The position numbers were made by a program, and so were the translations under genes. A DNA stretch of 60,714 nt, taken from Lentimicrobium sp. Lineage in GTDB: Bacteria > Bacteroidota > Bacteroidia > Bacteroidales > Lentimicrobiaceae. Below the pieces are notes generated by a model. It did not search any database. It was not told where the DNA came from and was given only the letters and a program-made list of their open reading frames with translations. The stretch lies in the NCBI GenBank assembly GCA_019429275.1, contig JAHYJC010000027.1, positions 1 through 60,714 of the forward strand, given 5' to 3'. This document shows, piece by piece, positions 4,701 to 37,225 of the stretch. Within the stretch, counting starts at the first letter, position 1, and each line of letters opens with the position of its first letter.

Positions 4701-6923
4701 GTAAGGATTGACTGCCAAATCTGAAATTGCCGCACCATCAATCGGCACATCAGTGGTTGGTGGGGTTATGTCAACCCACTGCGGATTAGCTGACAAGCCG
4801 TTTGTGGTTTTAAAAAGCCTGCGGCGGTCACAATCATTATTACCCGTATCACAATTCCAGTGTGGATTTTCCCTGGCAACATATAAAACATTACTGTTTG
4901 ATTTTGCCTCTCTGATTGTTTTAAGCGCAATATGAGCTGAATCACTTTTAACAAGGTCGCTTATCTTCTGCGGAGTTGTTTCAAAACCATTATTCGTCCG
5001 CCAAACATCCAAACCGCCGATATATAACCTTTTGGAGTTATTCTTACTCATTTCTATTGGGGCATCATTTCTTCGCTTCGGGTCAGTGATATTAAATGTA
5101 TCCGCGTGCAGAAATGTTTCTCCGCTGTTAATGGATTTTATCCCATAATATTCGGACATAAATCTAACCCGATATACATTTTGAGGGTTTTCATGATCAA
5201 AAACCACATCACCGGCATCTCCAACTTGTTGCTTGTAGGTATTATTCCACAAATAGTCATAATTGCCATCCTGTGTTCCTCCTATAATTAGCCCTGACCC
5301 GTCACCAGGTATTCCAATGCCGTAATACTGTGTAATATTTAAACCATATCTTGATATATCAGTCCATTGAACTGTATCTGCTTCAAGCCCTTTGGTTATT
5401 CCTCCGTCATTGCCATGATATACCCAGCCGTTAATTGAGCCATCTGGTTTCCTTTGTTTATAGGTTTTAATATCCCTGATGTCAACATGGTATGTGCTGG
5501 TTTCAGATAATGAATCTCTTTGTATCCTTAACGGTTCGACAAATGAATATGGAAAGATTAATTTGCCTCCTATATAAAAAGAGTTATTTCTGGTTTTTGA
5601 CCATTCAATCTCCATTTTATAATATCCAACTTGTGTAAGTTGCTTGAAATCTTCATAACCAAGTGGGTTTGATTCATCATACCATTTCACAATTTCAAAA
5701 CTGTTGCCTGCATCAGTTGAAAGAAACAGCCTGTTATAGCCAGAATTGGGGTTAGCAATCTCACTATTGGCAGTTATTACAAGTATTTTGGATGCGTCGT
5801 TAGGGTGCATGGCTGTTGATGACCTTAAAAATCTATATGTGGAGGTGTCAATAAGGCGATGGTCAATTTGTTCCCAATTTAATCCAAAATCAGTACTTTT
5901 CAGGACATGAGATCCACTTACAAGTACATAGTCAGGATTTAACGGATGCGATTCTATTTTAAACAATTGTTTATTTCCGTCAGCGGTAACTTTATAAACT
6001 TCTGTCCATGTAAGTCCACCGTTATCTGTACGCATTATTTTTGATTCCTTATCAAACTCAAAAACTACCAGTGCGAGCAATACATCCGGATTGTTGGTAT
6101 GTTGTACCATGCCCCCAATCCTGTAACCGATATTCCGTAGCGAATAATTGGGGTCATTCCTGAATGTTCTGATATTCAGCCCCGTTGTATCCCAGGTTAC
6201 TCCATTGTTTTTGCTTTTTAAAACACCTACTCCATAATCTTTGCCCCAGGTAAAAAAGCCAGTGCCAATATAAATTGTTCGTGGTTGCGCCGGATGCTTG
6301 ATAATTACATCAACACCTGGAATCATGTATTTGTCAGTAAGACTTTGCCAGTTGTCACCTCCGTTGTAAGTCACAAAAAGTCCGCTGGAGTTACTTCCTG
6401 CATAAATAGTCTGGAAATTACTGGTGTCAACCCAAATAGAAGTTACCAGCCCAAGTAGTGCTTTTTCGTTTGCTGGTGCGCTGTGATATATTGGTCCGAC
6501 TGCATCCCATACTACTGGTATTCCTTGACCATTATCTGCTTCGGCCAGTCTTGTTCTTTCATTTTCCAAAGCATTGCTATAAGAGAACATAGTTCCATTT
6601 TCATCAACTCTGGGTTCCATAAAATACAACCATCTGTTATAGTCTTTAAAACCACATGCTTTGTTGTTAATCCGACTGGTATCCTCACTAAAATATTGTT
6701 CTGTCGCTGCTTTTATATCGTAAAAATTACCTAAATGACTGAATCGGGCCATCCAGTTTTCTTGTGCAAAACTAAGCTGGTTAATAAAAAATAAAATCAA
6801 AATTAGAAGAGCCGGATAATATTTAAATAAACCCGGGTAATGTTGCCTGATGCTGCTTTTAGATTGTGTGCCGCAGGATAAGGCGTATTCAGAACAATTT
6901 ATTCTGTCATTATTGTTTTTCAT
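1800..6923 (-). CDS. Giant T9SS-exported BNR/sortilin-type and beta-helix protein
   Basis: 1707 aa. A hydrophobic segment at about residues 36-53 ending SFAQ is the signal peptide. It is preceded by an unusually long polar stretch of about 35 residues, so the true start could be a later non-ATG codon. Residues ~130-890 carry sortilin/BNR-type Asp-box repeats such as KSTDFGLNWEQI and RTDNGGLTWTEV, suggesting a multi-bladed beta-propeller. Residues ~900-1290 have right-handed beta-helix character (NNISGIYLDNCTGYIVEENE). A helical region follows to ~1600. The end is a type A T9SS sorting domain (YPNPAKDFITIEY). The likely role is a cell-surface adhesin or binding protein; no enzyme motif is clear. 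Confidence 0.8.
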   Translation of the reverse strand: MKNNNDRINCSEYALSCGTQSKSSIRQHYPGLFKYYPALLILILFFINQLSFAQENWMARFSHLGNFYDIKAATEQYFSEDTSRINNKACGFKDYNRWLYFMEPRVDENGTMFSYSNALENERTRLAEADNGQGIPVVWDAVGPIYHSAPANEKALLGLVTSIWVDTSNFQTIYAGSNSSGLFVTYNGGDNWQSLTDKYMIPGVDVIIKHPAQPRTIYIGTGFFTWGKDYGVGVLKSKNNGVTWDTTGLNIRTFRNDPNYSLRNIGYRIGGMVQHTNNPDVLLALVVFEFDKESKIMRTDNGGLTWTEVYKVTADGNKQLFKIESHPLNPDYVLVSGSHVLKSTDFGLNWEQIDHRLIDTSTYRFLRSSTAMHPNDASKILVITANSEIANPNSGYNRLFLSTDAGNSFEIVKWYDESNPLGYEDFKQLTQVGYYKMEIEWSKTRNNSFYIGGKLIFPYSFVEPLRIQRDSLSETSTYHVDIRDIKTYKQRKPDGSINGWVYHGNDGGITKGLEADTVQWTDISRYGLNITQYYGIGIPGDGSGLIIGGTQDGNYDYLWNNTYKQQVGDAGDVVFDHENPQNVYRVRFMSEYYGIKSINSGETFLHADTFNITDPKRRNDAPIEMSKNNSKRLYIGGLDVWRTNNGFETTPQKISDLVKSDSAHIALKTIREAKSNSNVLYVARENPHWNCDTGNNDCDRRRLFKTTNGLSANPQWVDITPPTTDVPIDGAAISDLAVNPYNAHEFYIAMTRGIPGKQVYKGSGTGAISWENISAGLPVLPVNCLLYRDGSTLNELFAGTDAGIYYLNDLLDSWVPFGNGMPYTVISDMEIDYSTNELYAATFGRGIYKASLCFDPNNIGPINITNNQVWNNRIVTDDIIINTGAQLTILGTVQMGPNRQIIVQQGGKLIVNGGKITNGCSNHPWKGIIVQGNSSGYQNPSDQGIVSLSDSAVIENAYIGIHCINPAIMPIDGGGIAEDPSTRARGGGIVFAYDSKFVNNQIAVQFEPYSKNSISHFERCSFEINTALLSNFSPAYMVRFNQVNTINILGCSFISRYLDHQINGIYSYHSSFVVSRKCSSVICSESIPSSFENLNYAIYSLSRTGGKTFSVQYSNFTKNRRGVYANATDNLRISHNNITMYRKNPLMDDNISGIYLDNCTGYIVEENELQNMETYPGYSTYGIYINNSGETNNMVYKNNISNCSYGITAQDKNRNINGSAGLLLKCNQFNNVKMDISVLKTNPTDIEMGIAGSQGSNGTTCDTPAGNLFSNLAPSTGYYSIHNSGEFVNYFHHAGTQNDPWYPKIVTESSVSRQPTGHNYSIGCCPPSPTGGGGSSIIDGETAFYKSEAETTKATLSSLIDEGETSDKVLEVNLASPSEALDVRNSILQYSPFVSDTVLKSSINREELLNNAMIRDIMVANPHSAKSETLMQEVDMRLEPMPDYMKDEILEGVFVLSAKELMEAKRDMDMQFYNYGFNRLLSVSLTDSIPVPADTLMALLSADGSVESLMRQAWLLLENGDTTSALNKWNNISNEIPLTEAELTELSQQQVFMQWLIENQPIDTLDTEPLNNFLLYSSPSVTAAARGILVANNLLEYNEPYLEPDLTKSMEVRKPGVKPVNQEIAYLKVYPNPAKDFITIEYNTGNDKIQGVIEIINESGRKVYNKNLGRQFDQIILDTRNFKSGSYIFRLASGDKYIGSSSVIISH

Positions 6924-7428
6924 GTTGTTTGCTTTGAAGTGTTACACTTGTTTTGTCCCCTCCCAGAGAATTCCAAATGTCGTAATGCAATCAAAGCAAC
7001 TAAGGGGGGAATCTTTGCAGATACCCTAAACGATAATGGAAATGAATAAATATTAAGAATGAACAAGGTTGTACAAATTTCTTTTGAATTGCAATGCATT
7101 GATATACAGACGAATACCCCCCCCCAAGTTGTATTCGGGGATAAAAAGGATTCAGTATTATATATCAAGTTCATGGCTCTGGAGTAAATATGATTGGGAT
7201 TGCTAATGTCACTGGCTATTTATGGTGTCAAATATAATTCATGATTTTAAAATTCAAAGAAATATTTTGAGAAAGTTATCAAGTTGAACATGAACATAAA
7301 TAAGCTTGGTTAACGCCAGAAAAACAATGTGCTTAAACCCCGATTCATTTTCTTTTTCAACCGCAAATAATTTTTCCCTCAATTCATACCTGCATAATTC
7401 TTATTTTTACCATTCGAAAAAAGTAAAG
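6924..7428. other. Intergenic region upstream of recJ
   Basis: About 500 bp between the divergent T9SS giant gene and recJ. It is AT-rich and contains a run of nine C at about 7117-7125. No protein-like reading frame on either strand is convincing. It presumably holds the two divergent promoters, but I could not place clean boxes. Confidence 0.5.
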
Positions 7429-9231
7429 ATGCAGAAACGTTGGGTATTGAAGGAGCGGGGTGATCCCGGAAAGGTTGCGGCATTGGCCGCTGAATTAAAG
7501 ATAAGTGCTGTACTGGCTGAGTTGCTTGTACAAAGGGAGGTATATACATTTGAGGAAGCCAGGAATTTTTTCAGGCCTTCGCTTGATCAGTTGCATGATC
7601 CATTCCTGATGAAGGATATGGACAAGGCTGTTGAACGGTTAATTAAAGCCATTGACAGTAAAGAAAAGATTCTTGTTTACGGAGATTATGATGTTGACGG
7701 AACTACAGCCGTTTCGCTGGTTTATAATTTTCTGAGAGAAATTGGCCACGAAAAAGTGGATTATTACATTCCCGACCGGTATTCGGAAGGTTACGGCATT
7801 TCGTTCAAAGGGGTTGATTTCGCAAATGACGAAGGATTTAGTCTGGTAATTGCGCTGGATTGTGGCATCAAAGCCATCGAAAAAATAAAAAAAGCCAACG
7901 AATACGGGGTTGACTTTATCATTTGTGACCACCACCGGCCCGATGATCAACTGCCCGAAGCCGTTGCTGTACTCGATGCCAAACGCCCCGATTGCAATTA
8001 TCCGTTCAAGGAACTTTCGGGATGCGGTGTAGGTTTTAAACTGATACAGGCTATTGCTTCGCAAAAAAACATAGACCCTGAAATCCTGCATAAATACCTT
8101 GATCTTGTAGTTGTCAGCATTGCATCCGACATTGTTCCGATAACCGGTGAAAACCGGATTCTGGCCTATTTCGGCCTGCGCCTGATCAATCAAAACCCGC
8201 GCCCCGGCTTCGAAGCCATACTCCGCTACTCAAACATCCTGAGAAAATCAGAGAATACCGAAGTAAATTCTGCTCCTGCTACCGGCAATGGGGTAAGCTG
8301 GGAAGATCCTCCATGCATTTTTAACCGTGAACTTACCATTTCAGATATGGTATTTCTGGTAGGTCCACGCATCAACGCTGCCGGGCGCATTGAGAGCGGG
8401 CGCAACTCGGTGAAACTGCTGGTTTGCGAAAATATTGAAGAGGCCGACACCATTGCCTGCCAAATCAACGATTTTAACACTACCCGCCGCGACCTTGACG
8501 CAAACACCACCGATATGGCGCTGGATGCCATTAAAACAGATGCCCGCCTCCGCGAAGCCTGTTCAACCGTAGTTTATAATAAAGACTGGCACAAAGGTGT
8601 AATCGGAATTGTAGCTTCACGACTCATTGAAGCTTATTACCGGCCAACCATTGTCCTTACATCTTCCAATGGACTGGTTACCGGTTCGGCACGATCGATC
8701 AAGGATTTTGACATTTATGATGCCATTGACGCATGCAGTGAACTGCTCGAACATTTTGGCGGCCACAAATATGCGGCAGGTCTTTCTCTAAAACCTGAAA
8801 ATCTTGATGCTTTTATTGAAAAGTTTGAAGAAGTGGTCAAAAAAGGTCTGACCGAAGAGATGTTATCGCCCGAAGTGGAAATTGACCTGAAAATCAATCT
8901 CAATGAAATAGGCCCCGGATTTTACAAAGTGCTGAAACAGTTTGCACCCTTTGGCCCCGGAAATATGTCGCCCGTTTTTCAAACCGATGGGGTTATCGAC
9001 AATGGTTACGGAAGAATTGTGGGCAAAAACCACCTGAAACTTACCATCGGCCATCACGAAATTGCATCAGCACCTTTTCCGGCCATTGCTTTTCAGCAGG
9101 GCGATCATTTCAATTATATCAGCCAGGGAAAACCTTTCAGCATTTGCTACCATATTGAAGAAAACGACTGGAATAACCAGAAATCCCTGCAACTCAACAT
9201 TAAGGATATAAAACTACCTGAAAAAGAATAA
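7429..9231 (+). CDS. recJ: Single-stranded-DNA-specific 5'-3' exonuclease RecJ
   Basis: 600 aa from the ATG at 7429 (MQKRWVLKERGDPGKV). An in-frame upstream extension to 7306 looks non-coding. The DHH-family motifs are present: YGDYDVDGTT, VIALDCGIKA and FIICDHHRPDD coordinate the two metal ions. The DHHA1 region contains GRIESGRNSVKLL and ends with the GSARSIKDFDIYDA and EHFGGHKYAAGLS motifs. A C-terminal OB-like domain follows. RecJ degrades ssDNA 5'-3' in RecF-pathway recombination, mismatch repair and base excision repair. Length and motif order match the family. It is monocistronic, followed by a strong hairpin. Confidence 0.95.
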   Translation: MQKRWVLKERGDPGKVAALAAELKISAVLAELLVQREVYTFEEARNFFRPSLDQLHDPFLMKDMDKAVERLIKAIDSKEKILVYGDYDVDGTTAVSLVYNFLREIGHEKVDYYIPDRYSEGYGISFKGVDFANDEGFSLVIALDCGIKAIEKIKKANEYGVDFIICDHHRPDDQLPEAVAVLDAKRPDCNYPFKELSGCGVGFKLIQAIASQKNIDPEILHKYLDLVVVSIASDIVPITGENRILAYFGLRLINQNPRPGFEAILRYSNILRKSENTEVNSAPATGNGVSWEDPPCIFNRELTISDMVFLVGPRINAAGRIESGRNSVKLLVCENIEEADTIACQINDFNTTRRDLDANTTDMALDAIKTDARLREACSTVVYNKDWHKGVIGIVASRLIEAYYRPTIVLTSSNGLVTGSARSIKDFDIYDAIDACSELLEHFGGHKYAAGLSLKPENLDAFIEKFEEVVKKGLTEEMLSPEVEIDLKINLNEIGPGFYKVLKQFAPFGPGNMSPVFQTDGVIDNGYGRIVGKNHLKLTIGHHEIASAPFPAIAFQQGDHFNYISQGKPFSICYHIEENDWNNQKSLQLNIKDIKLPEKE

Positions 9232-28236: not shown

Positions 28237-30647
28237 GTTGTGAATTGCTTTTGAATTGTAACCCCGCCTGCCCTGCTAATTTGCCCAAAACGATGGCGGG
28301 CAGGTTTGAAATATTGAGCACAACCTCTATTAATACTATAACATATAAATCGATGTTGTGAATTGCTTTTGAATTGTATCCCCGCCTGCCCTGCTAATTT
28401 GCCCAAACTATGGCGGGCAGGTTTGAAATATTGAGCACAACCACGTCTCAACAGGCGTGGAAAAAACTGAGGTTGTGAATTGCTTTTGAATTGTATCTTT
28501 GAAATATTGAGCACAACAGCATTATACGGCTCCCAATATCTGTTATAGTTGTGAATTGCTTTTGAATTGTATCCCCGCCTGCCCTGCTAATTTGCCCAAA
28601 CTATGGCGGGCAGGTTTGAAATATTGAGCACAACTAAAGCTGCTTTTGTACAGGACTCCGAAGAGTTGTGAATTGCTTTTGAATTGTATCTTTGAAATAT
28701 TGAGCACAACACATAAAACCAGCAGAAAAAGGGCAGGGTTGTTGTGAATTGCTTTTGAATTGTATCCCCGCCTGCCCTGCTAATTTGCCCAAACTATGGC
28801 GGGCAGGTTTGAAATATTGAGCACAACCAACCTTAATGTTGCTGCCTGCTGTGCTTAGTTGTGAATTGCTTTTGAATTGTATCTTTGAAATATTGAGCAC
28901 AACTATGTTTCTGTTTAGCCTCAGTATGGCCCTGTTGTGAATTGCTTTTGAATTGTATCTTTGAAATATTGAGCACAACTACTAAAGTTGGCGAAGCTCC
29001 AATCAAAGTGTTGTGAATTGCTTTTGAATTGTATCTTTGAAATATTGAGCACAACGTATATAAACCGAAAACCAACTCAGATTGTGTTGTGAATTGCTTT
29101 TGAATTGTATCCCCGCCTGCCCTGCTAATTTGCCCAAACTATGGCGGGCAGGTTTGAAATATTGAGCACAACGCCTTATAATACACTCAATATACATTAT
29201 AGGTTGTGAATTGCTTTTGAATTGTATCCCCGCCTGCCTGGGTTAACCAATATAAGAATTGACACATGGTTGTGAATTGCTTTTGAATTGTATCCCCGCC
29301 TGCCCTGCTAATTTGCCCAAACTATGGCGGGCAGGTTTGAAATATTGAGCACAACTGTCGTGTATCTCATGGCTATTTTACTTTAGTTGTGAATTGCTTT
29401 TGAATTGTATCTTTGAAATATTGAGCACAACTTTTCCAATATTCAAAAGTGGCTGGATGGCGTTGTGAATTGCTTTTGAATTGTATCTTTGAAATATTGA
29501 GCACAACCAGTTTAATTCAGGCTTAATATCACTATTGGTTGTGAATTGCTTTTGAATTGTATCTTTGAAATATTGAGCACAACTAAACTAAAATTTAGTT
29601 AATTATGAATTGTGTTGTGAATTGCTTTTGAATTGTATCTTTGAAATATTGAGCACAACTACAGGTACGGTAAGCACCTTTGACAAGTAGTTGTGAATTG
29701 CTTTTGAATTGTATCTTTGAAATATTGAGCACAACAACGATAAAATTTTATTAAATGAACGATACGTTGTGAATTGCTTTTGAATTGTATCTTTGAAATA
29801 TTGAGCACAACTGGGCTTGGCATAGGCTTTTGCTGCAAATAGTTGTGAATTGCTTTTGAATTGTATCTTTGAAATATTGAGCACAACTCAATCAATTTTA
29901 ACGGAAGTAGGTGTACCGTTGTGAATTGCTTTTGAATTGTATCTTTGAAATATTGAGCACAACCAATCTATGACACTATTCCGCTCGACAATAGTTGTGA
30001 ATTGCTTTTGAATTGTATCTTTGAAATATTGAGCACAACTGATTCACCGATAACAGGAGCAGATAATATGTTGTGAATTGCTTTTGAATTGTATCTTTGA
30101 AATATTGAGCACAACTTGAATCCAATTAGTACCGTCATAATATCTGTTGTGAATTGCTTTTGAATTGTATCTTTGAAATATTGAGCACAACCGAACTGAT
30201 TACCCGCTTCAGTGCTGAGCAGTTGTGAATTGCTTTTGAATTGTATCTTTGAAATATTGAGCACAACACTCCTAAACACAAACAAATGCCTACTGCCGTT
30301 GTGAATTGCTTTTGAATTGTATCTTTGAAATATTGAGCACAACACCTATCGTATTTTTGACACATAATACCAAGTTGTGAATTGCTTTTGAATTGTATCT
30401 TTGAAATATTGAGCACAACTCGTACATCCTACCACCATTGGTAAGATGAGTTGTGAATTGCTTTTGAATTGTATCTTTGAAATATTGAGCACAACTTCCA
30501 TGTTAAAAGTCTAATTTAGGTTCGTGTTGTGAATTGCTTTTGAATTGTATCTTTGAAATATTGAGCACAACTTTTGTCGGTAGTATCGAAAAACCTGAGG
30601 AGTTGTGAATTGCTTTTGAATTGTATCTTTGAAATATTGAGCACAAC
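28237..30647 (+). CRISPR. Type II-C CRISPR array, 29 repeats and 28 spacers
   Basis: The normal repeat is 46 bp. It begins GTTGTGAATTGCTTTTGAAT, has TATCTTTG at positions 23-30 and ends TTGAGCACAAC. All 28 spacers are 30 nt. Repeats 3, 5, 7-9 and 13-29 are normal (22 copies). Repeats 1, 2, 4, 6, 10 and 12 (starts 28237, 28355, 28548, 28741, 29086, 29269) are 87-88 bp because of an internal insert. Repeat 11 (29203-29238) is a 36-bp truncated form. Orientation is set by the tracrRNA anti-repeat, which pairs with the 5' half of the plus-strand repeat, so the guides are plus-strand. TATCTTTG with TTG 18 nt upstream (repeat positions 2-4) resembles a Bacteroidota promoter in every normal repeat. 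The array lies just beyond cas2, which is on the opposite strand. Confidence 0.97.
28261..29335 (+). mobile_element. Palindromic insert family inside CRISPR repeats
   Basis: Six full copies lie at 28261-28304, 28380-28421, 28573-28614, 28766-28807, 29111-29152 and 29294-29335. An 11-nt stub lies at 29228-29238. Each adds 41 bp (42 in the first) at repeat position 25/26, between TAT and TTTG. Five full copies are identical; the first differs (TAA for TAT before it, and CAAAACGATGG for CAAACTATGG inside). The arms CCTGCCC and GGGCAGG can pair, and CCCGCC with GGCGGG is an alternative stem. No target-site duplication is visible. Mobilisation by a HUH/REP-type transposase is inference. No transposase gene of that kind is in the window. 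Confidence 0.7.
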
Positions 30648-30718
30648 ATACCCCTGCTCAATGGTCTAACAACCAACTTTTTAAGGCTTAATATAGAAAA
30701 GAAAAAAAGTGCTCAGTT

Positions 30719-30753
30719 AAAATCCTTCCGCCACAGGGCAGAAGGATTTTTTT
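30719..30753 (+). terminator. Terminator between CRISPR array and cas2
   Basis: AATCCTTC (30721-30728) pairs with GAAGGATT (30741-30748). Seven T follow on the plus strand and only four on the minus strand. It is better placed to end a plus-strand array transcript, supporting the array orientation given by the tracrRNA. It also lies just after the cas2 stop, so it may act in both directions. Confidence 0.7.
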
Positions 30754-30761
30754 ATCCTGCT

Positions 30762-31109
30762 TCAGAATAATTCCAATTGCTGGGGCGTTCCGGGTTTTTG
30801 GGTTTCCTTTAGCCCCCTGAAAAATTCCATCATGCCGAATTGCTTGTCGGTAAGCGAAAACAAAATAATTTCGCCTTTAGGGGCTAAAAACGATTTTACC
30901 CTTTTTACATGGACATCGGCATTTTCACGGCTATTACAATGGCGAACGTAAATTGAATACTGCATCATGGTAAAACCATCCTTCAGGAGATTTTTCCGGA
31001 ACTTGGCATAGTTTTTCCGGTCCTTTTTGGTTTCGGTGGGCAGATCAAAAAATACAAAAATCCACAAAATCTGGTACTGGTTTAGTCTGTCAAATTTAGT
31101 CGTGGCCAA
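30762..31109 (-). CDS. cas2: CRISPR-associated endoribonuclease-fold protein Cas2
   Basis: 115 aa. The ferredoxin-like fold begins WIFVFFDLPTETKKDRKNYA, with the conserved Asp at residue 22. MMQYSIYVRHCNSRENADVH is the second core motif. Cas2 bridges the Cas1 dimers in the spacer-integration complex. The start appears to be TTG at 31109, 5 bp after the cas1 stop; no ATG fits the expected N-terminus. It is the last gene of the minus-strand cas operon and abuts the array terminator. Confidence 0.95.
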   Translation of the reverse strand: MATTKFDRLNQYQILWIFVFFDLPTETKKDRKNYAKFRKNLLKDGFTMMQYSIYVRHCNSRENADVHVKRVKSFLAPKGEIILFSLTDKQFGMMEFFRGLKETQKPGTPQQLELF

Positions 31110-31114
31110 TGTTA

Positions 31115-32017
31115 TTAACTGAATTCAGGGTATAAAATTCTTCTTGCATCACCTCCGAAACAGGCTGACAATGAAGCGGTAGTCCTTGATAAGCCCACCA
31201 TCAGCGGGCTTTTTTTCCCTTCGATTTCAATGTCAACCACAGGCACCTGAAGTAATTTTCTTTTAATTTCAGGCGTCAGTTCATCAGATTCCGGGAATTC
31301 TTCCGAAACCTGCAGCACAATCCGGTCAACATAAGGCCGGTAAGGTTCCATAATATCCGAAGCCAGGCACCAGGGGTTGTATTTGTTTCGGTGATGAATC
31401 CCAACAGCCGGAAGCAGTCCGCTGGATACCAGCGCACGGGCTACAACCGCCAGCAGAATGGCATAGCCATAATTGAGCATGGCATTGATACCGTCTTCAT
31501 CCCGGTTTCTGATGAAATTGCTTTTCTCCCCGAATAGATGCTCCCAGTAATATGCAGCTGCCCGCCCTTCCACATTCTGCGGATCGCCGCTTTTTACCAG
31601 CTTAATATAATACTGCATTTTCGTGTCATCTTTGCCAATGCTTTGCAACATGGCTGCCTGGTTGCTGATCTTGGCAATCACCGTCTGCTGCCAAAGGTTC
31701 TTTTTTAAAGGCAAAGAACTTTCCAATTGCTCGTACATTTTTTCGGTAAACGCATGATGTGAAAACATGGGAAGCATTAAACCATAAGGCAGATGCTTTG
31801 TGTCACAACTAACTAGGGCAACATTGTTATCAGACAAAGCAGAGATCAGCGCATGGGTCAGTGTTATCTGAGAATGATCAAGCACTACAATTCCAATATC
31901 TTCGATGGCTATTGTTGAAGGCGGTTTGTATTCCTTATCAGGAAATTCAATATTCATCTGCAAGTCCTTCTTTTTCAGATAGCAGGGGTTGCCAAAATAG
32001 AGGGTGCGCTTTATCAT
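31115..32017 (-). CDS. cas1: CRISPR integrase Cas1, type II-C
   Basis: 300 aa. The N-terminus MIKRTLYFGNPCYLKKKDLQ is the form usual in Bacteroidota type II-C systems. Likely metal ligands are Glu150 (VEGRAAAYYWEHLFG), His208 or 209 (LLPAVGIHHRNKYNPW) and Asp221 (ASDIMEPYRPYVD). Cas1 with Cas2 inserts new spacers beside a repeat. No cas4 or csn2 gene is present, which fits subtype II-C. It lies 112 bp after the 141-aa gene and 5 bp before cas2. Confidence 0.96.
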   Translation of the reverse strand: MIKRTLYFGNPCYLKKKDLQMNIEFPDKEYKPPSTIAIEDIGIVVLDHSQITLTHALISALSDNNVALVSCDTKHLPYGLMLPMFSHHAFTEKMYEQLESSLPLKKNLWQQTVIAKISNQAAMLQSIGKDDTKMQYYIKLVKSGDPQNVEGRAAAYYWEHLFGEKSNFIRNRDEDGINAMLNYGYAILLAVVARALVSSGLLPAVGIHHRNKYNPWCLASDIMEPYRPYVDRIVLQVSEEFPESDELTPEIKRKLLQVPVVDIEIEGKKSPLMVGLSRTTASLSACFGGDARRILYPEFS

Positions 32018-32129: not shown

Positions 32130-32555
32130 TTATTTGGTTCGTTTAAAAATAGAATAATGCCTCTTAACCCGTTGAATATACATAGAATCGGTCAACAGAA
32201 TATCACTAAACATTTTTAATAAGGTAGTAGATTTACTGGTTTGATGACTTCCCTTGTTTAATGCCGGACCTTTCAAATCTGCCAAAAGATCTTTATCGTT
32301 AAATCCCAGCCACTTAACATAAAATGAAGTTGATTCCCAACCCCAGCATATAGTAGCTAAGTCATGACTGTTGCTTAACGAGAAAACCTGGAACATAGCC
32401 CTGCGACAGTCGCAATCCGGTTCGTTACAAAAAAGTTCAATAAACATATAATCATCAGGTGGCAAACCGTAGTCGTTGTTCTTGAATAACGTAATAACCC
32501 TTGTTTCTTTTTCTGCTATCGCAGGAAACAATTCATGAAAAGGCTGGTACATCAT
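32130..32555 (-). CDS. Cys-rich protein of unknown function between cas9 and cas1
   Basis: 141 aa. The start ATGATG lies 12 bp after the cas9 stop, so it is almost certainly co-transcribed with cas9. N-terminal YQPFHELFPAIAEKETRVIT is followed by the motif IELFCNEPDCDCRR, with Cys43, Cys48 and Cys50 as a probable metal site. A Trp-rich stretch (TICWGWESTSFYVKWLGF) and a basic tail (VKRHYSIFKRTK) complete it. It resembles a small widespread bacterial family without assigned function, so the CRISPR link may be positional only. Standard type II-C operons go straight from cas9 to cas1. Confidence 0.7.
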   Translation of the reverse strand: MMYQPFHELFPAIAEKETRVITLFKNNDYGLPPDDYMFIELFCNEPDCDCRRAMFQVFSLSNSHDLATICWGWESTSFYVKWLGFNDKDLLADLKGPALNKGSHQTSKSTTLLKMFSDILLTDSMYIQRVKRHYSIFKRTK

Positions 32556-32567
32556 TGGCGCTGTGAT

Positions 32568-35500
32568 TTAAAGTGAAATATTGCCGAGACGGTCAACTCT
32601 TAATTTTATACATACATCTTTGATCATCTCACCTGTCAAGGCTTTTTGATTTTTCGATTGTGGGCTTCCAACTCCTAACTCATTTTGAATTGGATATTTA
32701 ATCCCTAATTTTAATTGCTCATTCTTATTTATTTTGAAAATTGTCGTTGCAAATGAATTAGGGATAAAATTTGCAATAGTATCGCTCGAATCCATAAATT
32801 TATAAATACGATTATGCAAAATATCATCTTCTAGAATAACCCCTTGTTGAATTAATTGATCCTGAGTAGGAACATAAACCAAATCATTTGGCGACAAATA
32901 AAAAAGTAGATTAAGCCCATCAGCATTAACCTCCGGGCATGGTGCAAGTCCCTGTTTTTGTCTTTCAATTACAATATTTAATGGGATGGTTTCGTAGCTT
33001 CGTTTACCTTCTTTATCCAGATAAATGGCAAAAAACAAGTTTGTTCCTTTGGCTGCTTCTACATATTTTTCCTTTTTATTACCGGATTGTCCTACACTAA
33101 ATTTATTTCCTTTAGGCTCGAAGGTTCTCACTTTAATAATAGGCTGATGTGGTTTGCCATCATTTAAATCAGTAAGATTCTGATTCATTTCTTCAATTCC
33201 TTCCGGCGAAAATGCAACTTCAGGATTGTTTTGTTTTTGTTCGAGATGTTTCAATAGAATTTTCCGAATGCCTGTATCTGTAATGCTATTAATTTTTGCT
33301 TCATTGAAAGATACATCGAGGCTTACTCTTGAAGCAACAAGCATTTCTTTTTCATCGCTGAAATAATATAGTTCTGGTTTCGATACATCTTTGCTCATCC
33401 ATTTGTATTCAATATCAGCAAAGAATTTGACAATCTTCTTTTTATCAAAACCTTCATTTATAAGTTGCTTAATCTTTGTCTTAAGATTTTTGTCAACTAA
33501 CATTTCCCATTTATCGATCGCAGCCGAAAGATTTACTCTTTTCCGTTCCCGCAAATTCACATGACCTGCCACCGTGTCCTTGTGCATCGGTTTTCGTATA
33601 GCCCAGCTATCTCCTGTGGTTTGTTCAACTTTTTCTTTGAGCCATTTGCCCTCTTTGTTTATATACTTCTCATATTTATTAGTGGTCTTGTTTATAACCC
33701 TCAGATTTTGCTTAAAACTTACCACTGTTGTTTCTAACTTTTGTTTTGCTTCGGGTATAAAAGTTTCCCAGGGTTGTTTGAAAACCCATTGGTAGTTGCT
33801 ATTTGAGCCATTATTGTATTTTTTATCGCATAAGATGGCCCTCAGATCTTCCCTTGCAACCTGTTTTTGATCTTTGGATTTCTTCTTGTCCAATGCGTTC
33901 TGATTATTCAGGTAGTTGATATGATTTCGGGTTGCGCAGGCAATAACCAGGGCATCCATTGCATGGTGGCGATGGTCGATGCGTTTTTTCTGGAAACCTT
34001 TTTGCAATTCGAGAGGAACTGCCGGAAGGTATTTCTGGTAGCGCTCGTTGTAAGTAGTAAAGTTTTGCGATTTGGTAAGTTCATTCAATCTTTCGAAGCG
34101 TGGTATGATCAAATCATTCCAAATGTTGTTTAAACCCCAGTCAGTTTTAAGAACGGATGTTATTTGTCCATTACTCGCTAATACATTTTTTGAGTTTACG
34201 CCATCATCCTTGCTTGTTTCTTCCCGGACAATATTTGATAAAAGCTGCATTACGAATTTACTGATGTAACGGGTGTCATTCATTTGCCGTTCAATCATCT
34301 TTTCAGGAATATCGTCCAATAAAAGTTTGTTTCGTTTGCCTCGGTTTTTATTATAATATAGTTTTACAAATTCCTGATATTCATCTTCGGAAAAGATTCT
34401 GACTTTTTTACCCGAATCGGTTTCAATAATCTGTCCATGATGATTTTTAATAAACTCCAATCCGGTTTGATTGGTTTTTTCTTTGTTAACGGCGGCTTCA
34501 CAGATAACTTTATTACTCAAACTGTCATCAAAATAGCGGCTTTGTGGAATAATGTGTTCTATTTCGTAGGCAGGTGTGAAAAGCTTATTTAATGGAATTA
34601 TTTCACCGGTATAAGGTGAGCGGTACTTTTGCTCTAACCAAAGTTTGTAACGCATGAGGTCCGAACCTGAAGGCTGGGCCTGTTTGCTGATTTTCTCAAT
34701 CTCTTCGGGTATTTCGGTATCCGAATTTAAAACTCCTTCTTCGTAAATCTTCAAAATTTCCTGCTGCATGGGCGAATATGGCCGGACGTTTTCAACATTT
34801 GAATCATTGAGCATTTCCATTAATAATGCTTTGATTCTCAGGTTGGTGTTTTCATTTTCCGCAATCCTTTCTGTCATTTTCTTCCGCTTGTCGGCAGGGT
34901 TTTTCATTTCTCTTCCTAACTCAATATGGATTTCGTTAAAAAAATCTTTTTCTCCACTTCCGAACTGGCTCCAAATGTCTTTGACAACCCGCAGCGTTTC
35001 GGTGATTACCTGCTCAACAATTGGATTACGCAATGAGTGTTGCCTGAAGCTGGCCAAATGATTCTCCAAATCTTTCACTGAATTCCACTTGCCTATTTCA
35101 GCATTTTCCGAATGACGATCGTACACTATATAGCTTGTAAGCCAAAGCGGAAGCCCTTTAAAATCAGACTCATTGGTTAGTGTAATAGCTTTATCCCTCA
35201 CTCTTTCCCTGATGCTTTCGTCAAATTCTCCTGTCAAAAGATGTTGGATACGAACTTTGGTATTACTGTCTATATTCTCATTGTTCCAGTATTTACCCAT
35301 TCTCATCAAAGGCAATAATTTTTTGACTGCTTTTAAAGAATAAGCGCCATATTCATTCTTAAACGGAGGAAATTTCCTGAAGTTTTCGAGAAAGCTTTCC
35401 GCATTGAGCTTGTATTTTACTGCAAATGATTTCAGTGCTTTTTCGTATTCAATTTTATCGTTGACCGAATAAATTAAGTGCCATAATTTTTCTTCAATTT

Positions 35501-37097
35501 CGGGAGTTAAAAAACCCGGTGAGAAATTTTCTACTTTCTCCAACCGGCTTTTTATCATCGAATGCGTTTCGTTACAAGGGTATTTTTTCTCTTCCACAAA
35601 ATTCCACCTGTGTGTTTTTTCGCTTATTTTAAAGTATTTAAGAAGTATTTTCTGTTCTACCTCTTTTCTTTCATTCAGGAAATCAAATAGTCTGACATAA
35701 TCGTCTTCTGAAAATAAATATTCCGGAGTGACATTCTCATCCATTTGCCGGGTGTAAATTTTTAAATTTTGAATCCATTGCCACAACCTGAACTCTTGAT
35801 ACACTGGATGCGACTTCGAAACGCATTTAATCGGTTCTGATTTTTTAATTCCTTCAACAACATAGCTTCTGTATTCAAACGAACAATTGCTAATTAAAGA
35901 TTTCTGACTTCTCAAAGGACGTTGATAGAAAAGGATATCTTCGATAAAAAGGTGTACAAAATCCTTATTCTGCAAGCTGTTTTTATGCGATTCGTTATGC
36001 GGATAAAGTTCTTCGATACAGGCATTGTAAAAATCAGTGTTTTTTAATTCAGGATGAAACTCAACCTGTTTTGTCAATATTTGCTTCAGTTCTTCCTTAT
36101 AGAACTTTCTTTCAATGGTACGAATAAGTTTCCCTTTTATTTTTTGATTTGGATTCCACAGTAATGTATTGTAGATGAATTGACCTACGGTTCCCCGGGT
36201 TTTTTCAATTTCTGATTCCGTTTTCTTTTTTCGCAATGTCCAATCATCTTCATTCGGAGCCCTAAAACTTCTTTTTTCTTTTCCGTCCTTATCAGTTTTA
36301 ACCGTTTTATCATCGTTCAGATCAGTGGTAACAATAAAATCTTTCGTTTTATTTTTCCAATCAAACATTGGATTTTTACTTGCCCTGCGATAGATCCAGC
36401 CGTTTTCTAACATAATACTATACCAGATTTCCGACTTTCCCTTCTGTGGCGCGTCTGCTGTTACATCAACTACTTTCAATGAATGAAATTCAACCAGCTT
36501 ATTCTGATTTTCTTCTTCTTCATCACCTCTAAGCTGATAATAGCCTCTTTTTTGATTGAAATTCAGTAAGAGCCATGCTAATTCTTCCTTTTCAATTTTT
36601 GCAGTCAGTGCTTTTTGTCTCAGATAATAAATAGTCCAGTCAAAAGGAACCTTTCTTCCGTTGGTAACTAAATCCGGTTGACTTTTTCTAAAATCATGAA
36701 GCATTTCTTCGAATGATTTTTTGAAAATGAAATCGTTTTGCTCATTATAAACCAGTTTAGTTTCAGTTTCAGGCAAGAATTTCCCCATTCTTTTACCAAA
36801 ATCAATTTTATCGGAATAATGTTGTGGCAAAAATCCTAATAGGTTCAAAACTCTATGCAATCTTTCTCTACGTTGTAAATGTCTCTCCCGCAATCTTCTT
36901 ACTCCGCGAAATCCAGTTCTTTCTGCTGTTTGCGATATAGAATTCCCCTTATCAAAATCCCCTAATATATCTTGCGACATGGGTATTATTCTGCTTCCAA
37001 GCCCAAGAATATTTCCTTGCTTTTCTTCAAAATTCTGATCCACCAACGCCCATCCAATAGAGTTGGTTCCCAAATCTAATCCTAAGATTTTTTTCAT
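32568..37097 (-). CDS. cas9: CRISPR effector nuclease Cas9, large type II-C
   Basis: 1509 aa. RuvC-I is KKILGLDLGTNSIGWALVD with catalytic Asp8. The Arg-rich bridge helix follows (ERTGFRGVRRLRERHLQRRE). RuvC-II has Glu726 (EIHIELGREMKN). HNH has His848 (YEIEHIIPQSRYFDDSLSNK). RuvC-III has His1045 and Asp1048 (DHRHHAMDALVIA). All catalytic residues are present, so the enzyme should be active. The length is typical of Bacteroidota II-C proteins and well above the ~1,000-1,100 aa of Neisseria or Campylobacter. The extra length is spread through the REC and C-terminal regions. The tracrRNA is divergent, 40 bp upstream. Confidence 0.97.
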   Translation of the reverse strand: MKKILGLDLGTNSIGWALVDQNFEEKQGNILGLGSRIIPMSQDILGDFDKGNSISQTAERTGFRGVRRLRERHLQRRERLHRVLNLLGFLPQHYSDKIDFGKRMGKFLPETETKLVYNEQNDFIFKKSFEEMLHDFRKSQPDLVTNGRKVPFDWTIYYLRQKALTAKIEKEELAWLLLNFNQKRGYYQLRGDEEEENQNKLVEFHSLKVVDVTADAPQKGKSEIWYSIMLENGWIYRRASKNPMFDWKNKTKDFIVTTDLNDDKTVKTDKDGKEKRSFRAPNEDDWTLRKKKTESEIEKTRGTVGQFIYNTLLWNPNQKIKGKLIRTIERKFYKEELKQILTKQVEFHPELKNTDFYNACIEELYPHNESHKNSLQNKDFVHLFIEDILFYQRPLRSQKSLISNCSFEYRSYVVEGIKKSEPIKCVSKSHPVYQEFRLWQWIQNLKIYTRQMDENVTPEYLFSEDDYVRLFDFLNERKEVEQKILLKYFKISEKTHRWNFVEEKKYPCNETHSMIKSRLEKVENFSPGFLTPEIEEKLWHLIYSVNDKIEYEKALKSFAVKYKLNAESFLENFRKFPPFKNEYGAYSLKAVKKLLPLMRMGKYWNNENIDSNTKVRIQHLLTGEFDESIRERVRDKAITLTNESDFKGLPLWLTSYIVYDRHSENAEIGKWNSVKDLENHLASFRQHSLRNPIVEQVITETLRVVKDIWSQFGSGEKDFFNEIHIELGREMKNPADKRKKMTERIAENENTNLRIKALLMEMLNDSNVENVRPYSPMQQEILKIYEEGVLNSDTEIPEEIEKISKQAQPSGSDLMRYKLWLEQKYRSPYTGEIIPLNKLFTPAYEIEHIIPQSRYFDDSLSNKVICEAAVNKEKTNQTGLEFIKNHHGQIIETDSGKKVRIFSEDEYQEFVKLYYNKNRGKRNKLLLDDIPEKMIERQMNDTRYISKFVMQLLSNIVREETSKDDGVNSKNVLASNGQITSVLKTDWGLNNIWNDLIIPRFERLNELTKSQNFTTYNERYQKYLPAVPLELQKGFQKKRIDHRHHAMDALVIACATRNHINYLNNQNALDKKKSKDQKQVAREDLRAILCDKKYNNGSNSNYQWVFKQPWETFIPEAKQKLETTVVSFKQNLRVINKTTNKYEKYINKEGKWLKEKVEQTTGDSWAIRKPMHKDTVAGHVNLRERKRVNLSAAIDKWEMLVDKNLKTKIKQLINEGFDKKKIVKFFADIEYKWMSKDVSKPELYYFSDEKEMLVASRVSLDVSFNEAKINSITDTGIRKILLKHLEQKQNNPEVAFSPEGIEEMNQNLTDLNDGKPHQPIIKVRTFEPKGNKFSVGQSGNKKEKYVEAAKGTNLFFAIYLDKEGKRSYETIPLNIVIERQKQGLAPCPEVNADGLNLLFYLSPNDLVYVPTQDQLIQQGVILEDDILHNRIYKFMDSSDTIANFIPNSFATTIFKINKNEQLKLGIKYPIQNELGVGSPQSKNQKALTGEMIKDVCIKLRVDRLGNISL

Positions 37098-37134: not shown

Positions 37135-37138
37135 CGCT

Positions 37139-37225
37139 ACAATTCAAAGCAATTCACAATAAGGATTATTCCGTTGTGAAAACATTTAAGCCGCCCTCGT
37201 CTTTCAATACGGGGGCTTTCTTTTT
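37139..37225 (+). ncRNA. tracrRNA
   Basis: The anti-repeat at 37138-37159 reads ACAATTCAAAGCAATTCACA. It is complementary to the first ~23 nt of the plus-strand repeat with a single-base bulge (one A missing). A nexus-like segment AAGGATTATTCCGTTGTGAA follows, resembling the nexus of known tracrRNAs. The terminator is GCCCTCG (37193-37199) pairing with CGGGGGC (37210-37216), then a T tract to ~37225. It guides processing of pre-crRNA with RNase III and loads Cas9. A longer form could end at the second hairpin at 37302. Confidence 0.9.

Follow-up and report, generated by a model that had tools for sequence, protein, structure and literature searches.

Type II-C CRISPR systems have the order cas9-cas1-cas2-array, with the leader adjoining cas2, and the portions available of two reports on such systems describe no inserts inside their repeats (PMC8092290, PMC5006608). 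According to the same extracts, the II-C arrays of Flavobacterium columnare are transcribed towards the leader end, the leader being drawn 3' (PMC8092290), and in Riemerella the sequence that separates cas2 from the array is the leader, and unique spacers lie at that end (PMC5006608). Mobile DNA is known from at least one Bacteroidota II-C array, that of Flavobacterium psychrophilum, where it takes the form of a full IS256 insertion sequence with target duplication at one place (PMC10309648, in part). Among short palindromic elements, the nearest parallels are the REP/REPIN sequences and their TnpA-REP (RAYT) proteins; these elements are short, dispersed, imperfect palindromes with non-pairing stem positions, and a conserved bulge is given as necessary for Escherichia coli REPs in an extract of PMC8266576. 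Additionally, the TnpA-Y1 proteins of Bacteroidetes subclass 2.6 go with non-canonical hairpins that have genomic copies (PMC6006769, in part).

The stretch of DNA considered here, henceforth the window, comprises 60,714 nt from the Bacteroidota bacterium Lentimicrobium sp. (contig JAHYJC010000027.1), and contains a II-C array in which a short palindrome is lodged within some of the repeats. In contrast to the IS256 case, the element and its relatives are hairpins of 20-42 nt, which occupy a fixed position of the repeat and occur in several repeats. Based on the comparisons set out below, REP-like hairpins that sit at a constant position in II-C repeats and spread within arrays are real and recurrent. 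Among the matches listed in searches of open-licence papers, none was on inserts within CRISPR repeats by title or start of abstract.

The CRISPR locus and its polarity

The locus is of type II-C, having cas9, a type II cas1, cas2 and an array of regular repeats (Table 1), and the order of these elements, as well as a presumed leader next to cas2, is that of the described systems. To the right of the array lie cas2, cas1, an ORF of 141 aa and cas9, all on the minus strand. Measurement of every repeat and spacer gave 29 copies (R1-R29) of the 46-nt repeat GTTGTGAATTGCTTTTGAATTGTATC-TTTGAAATATTGAGCACAAC and a length of 30 nt for all 28 spacers, including the one that follows R11. Repeat nt 2-24 are matched, but for one absent T, by the anti-repeat, which is putatively part of the tracrRNA. 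Rfam has no match in the window, and no viral contigs containing the repeat core were found.

Table 1. Positions of the CRISPR-cas features and of the repeat inserts within the window
Feature	Position	Strand	Basis
Type II-C CRISPR array, 29 repeats (R1-R29) of 46 nt, 28 spacers of 30 nt	28237-30647	+	
R1 insert, 42-nt variant	28263-28304	+	
R2 insert, 41 nt	28381-28421	+	sequence search
R4 insert, 41 nt	28574-28614	+	sequence search
R6 insert, 41 nt	28767-28807	+	sequence search
R10 insert, 41 nt	29112-29152	+	sequence search
R11, cut short: repeat nt 1-26 and insert nt 1-10	29203-29238	+	
Spacer 3' of R11, exactly 30 nt	29239-29268	+	
R12 insert, 41 nt	29295-29335	+	sequence search
R13-R29, 17 normal repeats and their spacers	29386-30647	+	
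Presumed leader side with terminator-like hairpin, array-cas2 gap	30648-30761		sequence by eye, flank comparison
cas2	30762-31109	-	PF09827
cas1	31115-32017	-	TIGR03639
141-aa ORF between cas9 and cas1	32130-32555	-	no Pfam/NCBIfam match
cas9	32568-37097	-	TIGR01865
Anti-repeat upstream of cas9, putative tracrRNA part	37138-37159	-	

The left end of the array is taken as the old, leader-distal end, with R1 the oldest repeat and R29 the newest, because of the II-C polarity in the papers cited above and the decayed 5' units and A-N-A 3' flanks of related arrays. For the latter, 99 related loci were surveyed and gave 71 arrays, 20 loci having given no array and eight with a consensus shorter than 44 nt having been dropped. 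A decayed old end, at which the next upstream unit keeps its right half and not its left, is present in 20 of the 54 arrays with a visible 5' end, some of these 20 being the insert-bearing arrays themselves, and the 3' flank starts A-N-A in 41 of 70 arrays. In two other genomes of the window's genus, the left half of the CRISPR repeat stands by itself, with flanks that resemble each other (L102 in G001, L096 in G007).

Inserts within the repeats

The original prediction held that six of the first 12 repeats share a palindrome of 41-42 bp at one site, and measurement of all repeats confirms this: R1, R2, R4, R6, R10 and R12 bear the insert, in a single orientation throughout. The site is indeed fixed; it lies exactly between repeat nt 26 and 27 (GTATC^TTTGA), and not at 25/26 as had been stated. 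It was also correctly noted that the insert boundaries show no target-site duplication, which sets the element apart from MITEs. The inserts of R2, R4, R6, R10 and R12 are identical to one another, and R1 differs both in a base of its repeat (TAAC for TATC) and inside its 42-nt insert. R11 measures 36 nt, its 26 nt of repeat being followed by the first 10 nt of the insert, and R13-R29 are 46 nt each and have no insert. All seven altered repeats of the 29 fall within the first 12, for which the probability under random placement is 5e-4. A search of the 4.19-Mb assembly (108 contigs) for the exact insert, with up to three mismatches allowed, found it in the array alone.

Since insert-bearing and normal repeats are interleaved, simple block duplication of a single repeat is ruled out, as had been argued from the outset. 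The companion argument, that the divergent R1 implies at least two insertions, is weak, given that R1 is taken as the oldest and has diverged in its repeat sequence as well. The insert site lies two bases past the anti-repeat match, just outside it. It also splits TATCTTTG (repeat nt 23-30), which fits TAnnTTTG, a Bacteroidetes promoter element described in the available text of PMC10309648.

A dispersed family of REP-like palindromes

The evidence supports the insert as a member of a dispersed family of imperfect REP-like hairpins. A search for the family pattern, CCCGCCTG...CGGGCAGG, in which conservation of the arm letters is built in, gave 341 matches spread over 74 of the 393 genomes of the order, taken to be Bacteroidales, with up to 27 per genome, nested matches being counted apart and 18 of the total lying in the CRISPR repeats of G000, G226 and G280. 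When the arms were rearranged to a perfect palindrome, the same 393 genomes gave 41 places in 34 genomes, which argues that the imperfect arm order is a trait of the family. The genome of the window itself has three exact-arm members of the family outside the array (C32, C60 and C81) and a longer relative (C23). At the fetched loci, dispersed copies have varied flanks, and some lie in short tandem repeats, inside other hairpins or head to tail; at L158, L168, L199 and L182, family palindromes form perfect head-to-tail tandems or are nested in the loop of another hairpin.

The family has two features of REPs, namely a short palindrome capable of forming a hairpin and dispersed genomic copies. 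It differs from REP/RAYT systems in that neither a GTAG nor a CGTC tetranucleotide is present at the hairpin foot, as judged from the ends and flanks of 91 dispersed copies, and in that the element of the window sits inside CRISPR repeats. Folding lends modest support to the predicted hairpin, the z-scores of DNA folds being -1.7 (window insert), -2.1 (one G226 insert), -2.7 (G280 insert) and -1.1 (insert at L115); in the most stable fold predicted for the window insert, 4 nt at one end remain unpaired. No strong fixed short target, of the kind that had been proposed and that IS200/IS605-type transposition uses, is evident in the 91 dispersed copies, in which flank preference is weak (A at -3 in 62 %, T at +1 in 41 %); inside CRISPR repeats the site is fixed. 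A candidate target rule for the family, C^TTTGA, was rejected, since the search that suggested it had TTTGAA in its pattern and the rule is absent from those 91 flanks, which had not been selected by flank.

Recurrence of the inserts in other arrays

Inserts of the family occupy the same repeat site in the window, in G226, in G280 and in two metagenome-assembled genomes (JAIOZL010000022.1 and JAGVPB010000013.1), with inner sequences that differ. In G280 (JALSSR010000095.1), eight of the 10 repeats seen bear an insert, with two normal repeats between them; one of the eight lies ~1 kb apart from the rest, and one insert variant is common to two adjacent units. Two neighbouring spacers of this genome are nearly identical (L095:10413-10618). 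G226 (JAFGME010000317.1) has five insert-bearing repeats, some of them degenerate or solitary, and 31 normal repeats that are flanked at both ends by insert-bearing ones. At L094 of the same genome (~5745-8940), a spacer whose remaining sequence adds up to 30 nt is interrupted by an element that carries two genes named by eye, one tyrosine-recombinase-like and one IS91-like. A scan of genome contigs for the two halves of the pattern gave 11 stretches, of which three are those of G226 and G280, two come from new species (L108 and L115), in each of which a solitary repeat has a family insert at the site, and six were dismissed as chance matches or matches due to unusual spacers.

The degenerate first repeat of G375 has 39 nt inserted at the same position, and here a CCCGCCTGCC arm is on the other strand; its membership of the family is uncertain, the match being weaker and facing the opposite way. 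A second insert site, which follows GCTTT directly or lies slightly further along, is occupied by other elements in six genomes (G159, G041, G326, G290, G161 and G234), and these elements (L100, L271, L278, L280, L298 and L301) sit in the oldest repeats. Together with G375 (L099), these six genomes account for old-end inserts in seven of the 71 arrays. For this count, one-base indels, runs of N and decayed first repeats did not qualify as inserts, nor did a partial repeat copy of 18 nt (L284) or a case of 83 nt (L336).

The distribution of subtypes bears directly on how the inserts multiplied. In each of the three genomes listed copy by copy (G000, G226 and G280), the array's own subtype was found only in CRISPR repeats, and other subtypes of the family are dispersed; for G226 and G280 the subtype search required exact arms and may have missed altered copies elsewhere. 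Outside the array, the window has one TATCTTTGA site and 49 CTTTGA sites, which scale to ~72 and ~3500 in the genome, compared with 29 repeats in the array. The confinement of the subtype to CRISPR repeats points to spread within the array by copying or exchange of repeats and argues against separate transposition, many independent hits being unlikely.

Y1 transposases and a RAYT-like gene in cas operons

Genes of the Y1/HUH type, which the original prediction invoked, are present, the genome of the window having seven. By pattern search, none of the seven has a family palindrome within ~1.5 kb, and the loci of the dispersed copies (L117-L206) yielded one Y1 gene. Three of the Y1 proteins (L031, L033 and L034) carry motifs of the YIHxNP type and resemble in this, as in phylum, TnpA-Y1 subclass 2.6; unlike the hairpins of that subclass, the palindrome of the window has no physical link to the Y1 genes.

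A RAYT-like gene, the product of which matches NF047646 with E ~1e-14, a score below the model's cut-off, lies within 1.5 kb of cas1 at 27 of 145 related cas1 places (140 genomes), and in all 27 it is upstream and on the same strand. Examples are found in G375 (L099:2118-2837), G116 (L101:1519-2160) and G280 (L229), the last of which had been identified by its inserts. Thirty RAYT loci were fetched, and all have an ORF with HxH and Y motifs, these being the criterion by which the ORFs were picked; tblastn located cas1 in 18 of them, 12 of which have cas9 on the far side. In 12 fetched relatives the RAYT-like gene occupies the place in the cas9-cas1 gap that the 141-aa ORF holds in the window, which has no cas-linked RAYT. 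Over 711 aligned residues, the cas9 of the window has 79 % identity with that of the RAYT-bearing G375. RAYT relatives also occur alone, 51 of 80 places not adjoining such a cas1. In a poorly resolved tree of the 30 RAYTs and three Y1 proteins of the window's genome, the cas-linked RAYTs do not form one clade. Among the matches listed in searches of open-licence papers, none was on a RAYT-like gene in cas operons by title or abstract start.

In REPtrons of the GTAG type, the RAYT gene is flanked by the same hairpin; here the family palindrome is present at one of 50 RAYT loci (two sets, of 30 and 20). The exception is G261 (C78), where it lies ~230 bp from a stand-alone RAYT gene (L377:2403-2421), on one side only and away from cas1; two degenerate relatives of the palindrome are nearby. 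CGTC REPs likewise have no flanked RAYT genes (PMC3733652, in part). The strict family pattern was not found at 95 cas1 loci totalling 775 kb. At the level of genomes, RAYTs occur in 21 of 74 that have the palindrome and in 39 of 319 others (one-sided Fisher P=0.0009, uncorrected for kinship or genome size). A link between cas-linked RAYTs and array inserts was considered and is not claimed as an association, since RAYT adjoins cas1 in only two (G375 and G161) of the seven arrays with old-end inserts.

Evolution of the mosaic array

The preferred account, held tentatively and at somewhat less than an even chance, is a single insertion that was copied with repeat duplication and then subject to precise losses tied to spacer acquisition; the polarity in this strain (from relatives), the single insertion and the coupling of loss to acquisition are inferred. 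A REP-like hairpin would have entered one repeat of the II-C array once, between nt 26 and 27, where, being two bases past the anti-repeat match, it should little disturb the crRNA:tracrRNA duplex. The insert-bearing leader-proximal repeat would then have been duplicated at each acquisition of a spacer, and, as the repeat is opened and refilled at integration, its single strand could fold into a hairpin, the arms of which reach within a few bases of the insert ends, so that some of the copies left behind might lose the insert precisely and become normal repeats. R11 may record one integration in which the leader-side cut fell inside the insert, after nt 10, and only 36 nt were duplicated. Finally, the leader-proximal repeat would itself have lost the insert, and R13-R29 would derive from the normal form. 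One insertion and about six losses could account for the whole order, provided that left-behind copies can also lose the insert.

Several observations fit this sequence of events. With the leader on the right, cuts at the left edge of the repeat and after insert nt 10 yield 36 nt, a 30-nt spacer and a full repeat, which is the arrangement of R11, its spacer and R12, and the exact length of that spacer is as expected of integration into an insert-bearing leader-proximal repeat. On that reading R12 was once leader-proximal and has the insert, yet R13-R29 do not, and the template must therefore have lost it at least once. The variant common to adjacent units in G280 is what sequential copying predicts. 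However, precise loss in the absence of flanking direct repeats is not a routine product of slippage, and about six such losses are needed. Also counting against the model are the imperfect coincidence of hairpin foot and insert boundary, with 4 nt unpaired, a fold only modestly better than those of shuffled sequences (z -1.7), and the 31 normal repeats of G226, which fit only if loss is very frequent or if the 3' unit is not leader-proximal. Moreover, R11 could be a chance deletion that happens to end at a spacer edge, which would remove the argument drawn from it.

The main rival, less probable though a serious contender, is gene conversion, whereby the insert was donated to neighbouring repeats, or erased by normal ones, in short non-reciprocal exchanges within the 46-nt repeat. 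It would explain why five identical inserts are found only in the array and why a variant is common to adjacent units in G280, and it requires no loss at acquisition. Exchange between repeats ordinarily leads to the loss or duplication of spacers, however, and the conversion tracts would have to start and stop within 26 and 20 nt of homology with both flanking spacers staying unique; conversion alone does not explain R11 with its exact spacer, and later gain by this route needs about as many events as an insertion followed by losses. The original prediction favoured independent, site-specific insertions into identical targets by a Y1/HUH (RAYT-like) enzyme. Recurrence of the same repeat site across species, the seven Y1 genes, the RAYT-like genes of related cas operons and the palindrome close to the G261 RAYT, set against none at 95 cas1 loci, are in keeping with it. 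As the cause of the six copies, repeated hits are nonetheless distinctly unlikely, given that none of the three genomes yielded the array subtype outside CRISPR repeats, that dispersed copies have no strong fixed target, and that all seven Y1 genes (within ~1.5 kb) and 49 of 50 RAYT loci are without a family palindrome.

It is very unlikely that the mosaic is an artefact of assembly or binning in which strains with and without the insert were merged; the assembly is in 108 contigs and repeats are hard to assemble, but unique spacers anchor each insert-bearing repeat, two further assemblies (G226 and G280) show the mixed pattern and the structure of R11 is precise. Least credible of all is selection for repeats with a hairpin, for instance because, at the old end of the array, they delimit transcription or block promoters within the repeats. 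The old-end inserts of the survey and the splitting of TATC^TTTG, which fits TAnnTTTG (an extract of PMC10309648), would suit such a role, but the sequences, the lengths and even the sites of the elements differ between species, and most of the surveyed arrays have no inserts.

Implications for CRISPR biology

A marked repeat is a natural tracer of the copying of CRISPR repeats, a process that is usually invisible as the repeats are identical, and the mosaic together with R11 could bring to light single-strand intermediates and mis-measured integration events of II-C systems. The analysis also draws attention to a RAYT-like gene located in cas operons. An improbable but wider-reaching idea would connect the two, in which hairpins of II-C repeats are gained, copied and precisely removed during acquisition while the repeat is single-stranded, and the HUH/RAYT-like enzyme encoded upstream of cas1 is a CRISPR-associated factor that acts on folded strands in repeat duplication. 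The finding is also one of a small family of elements that has repeatedly settled at a defined place in CRISPR repeats.
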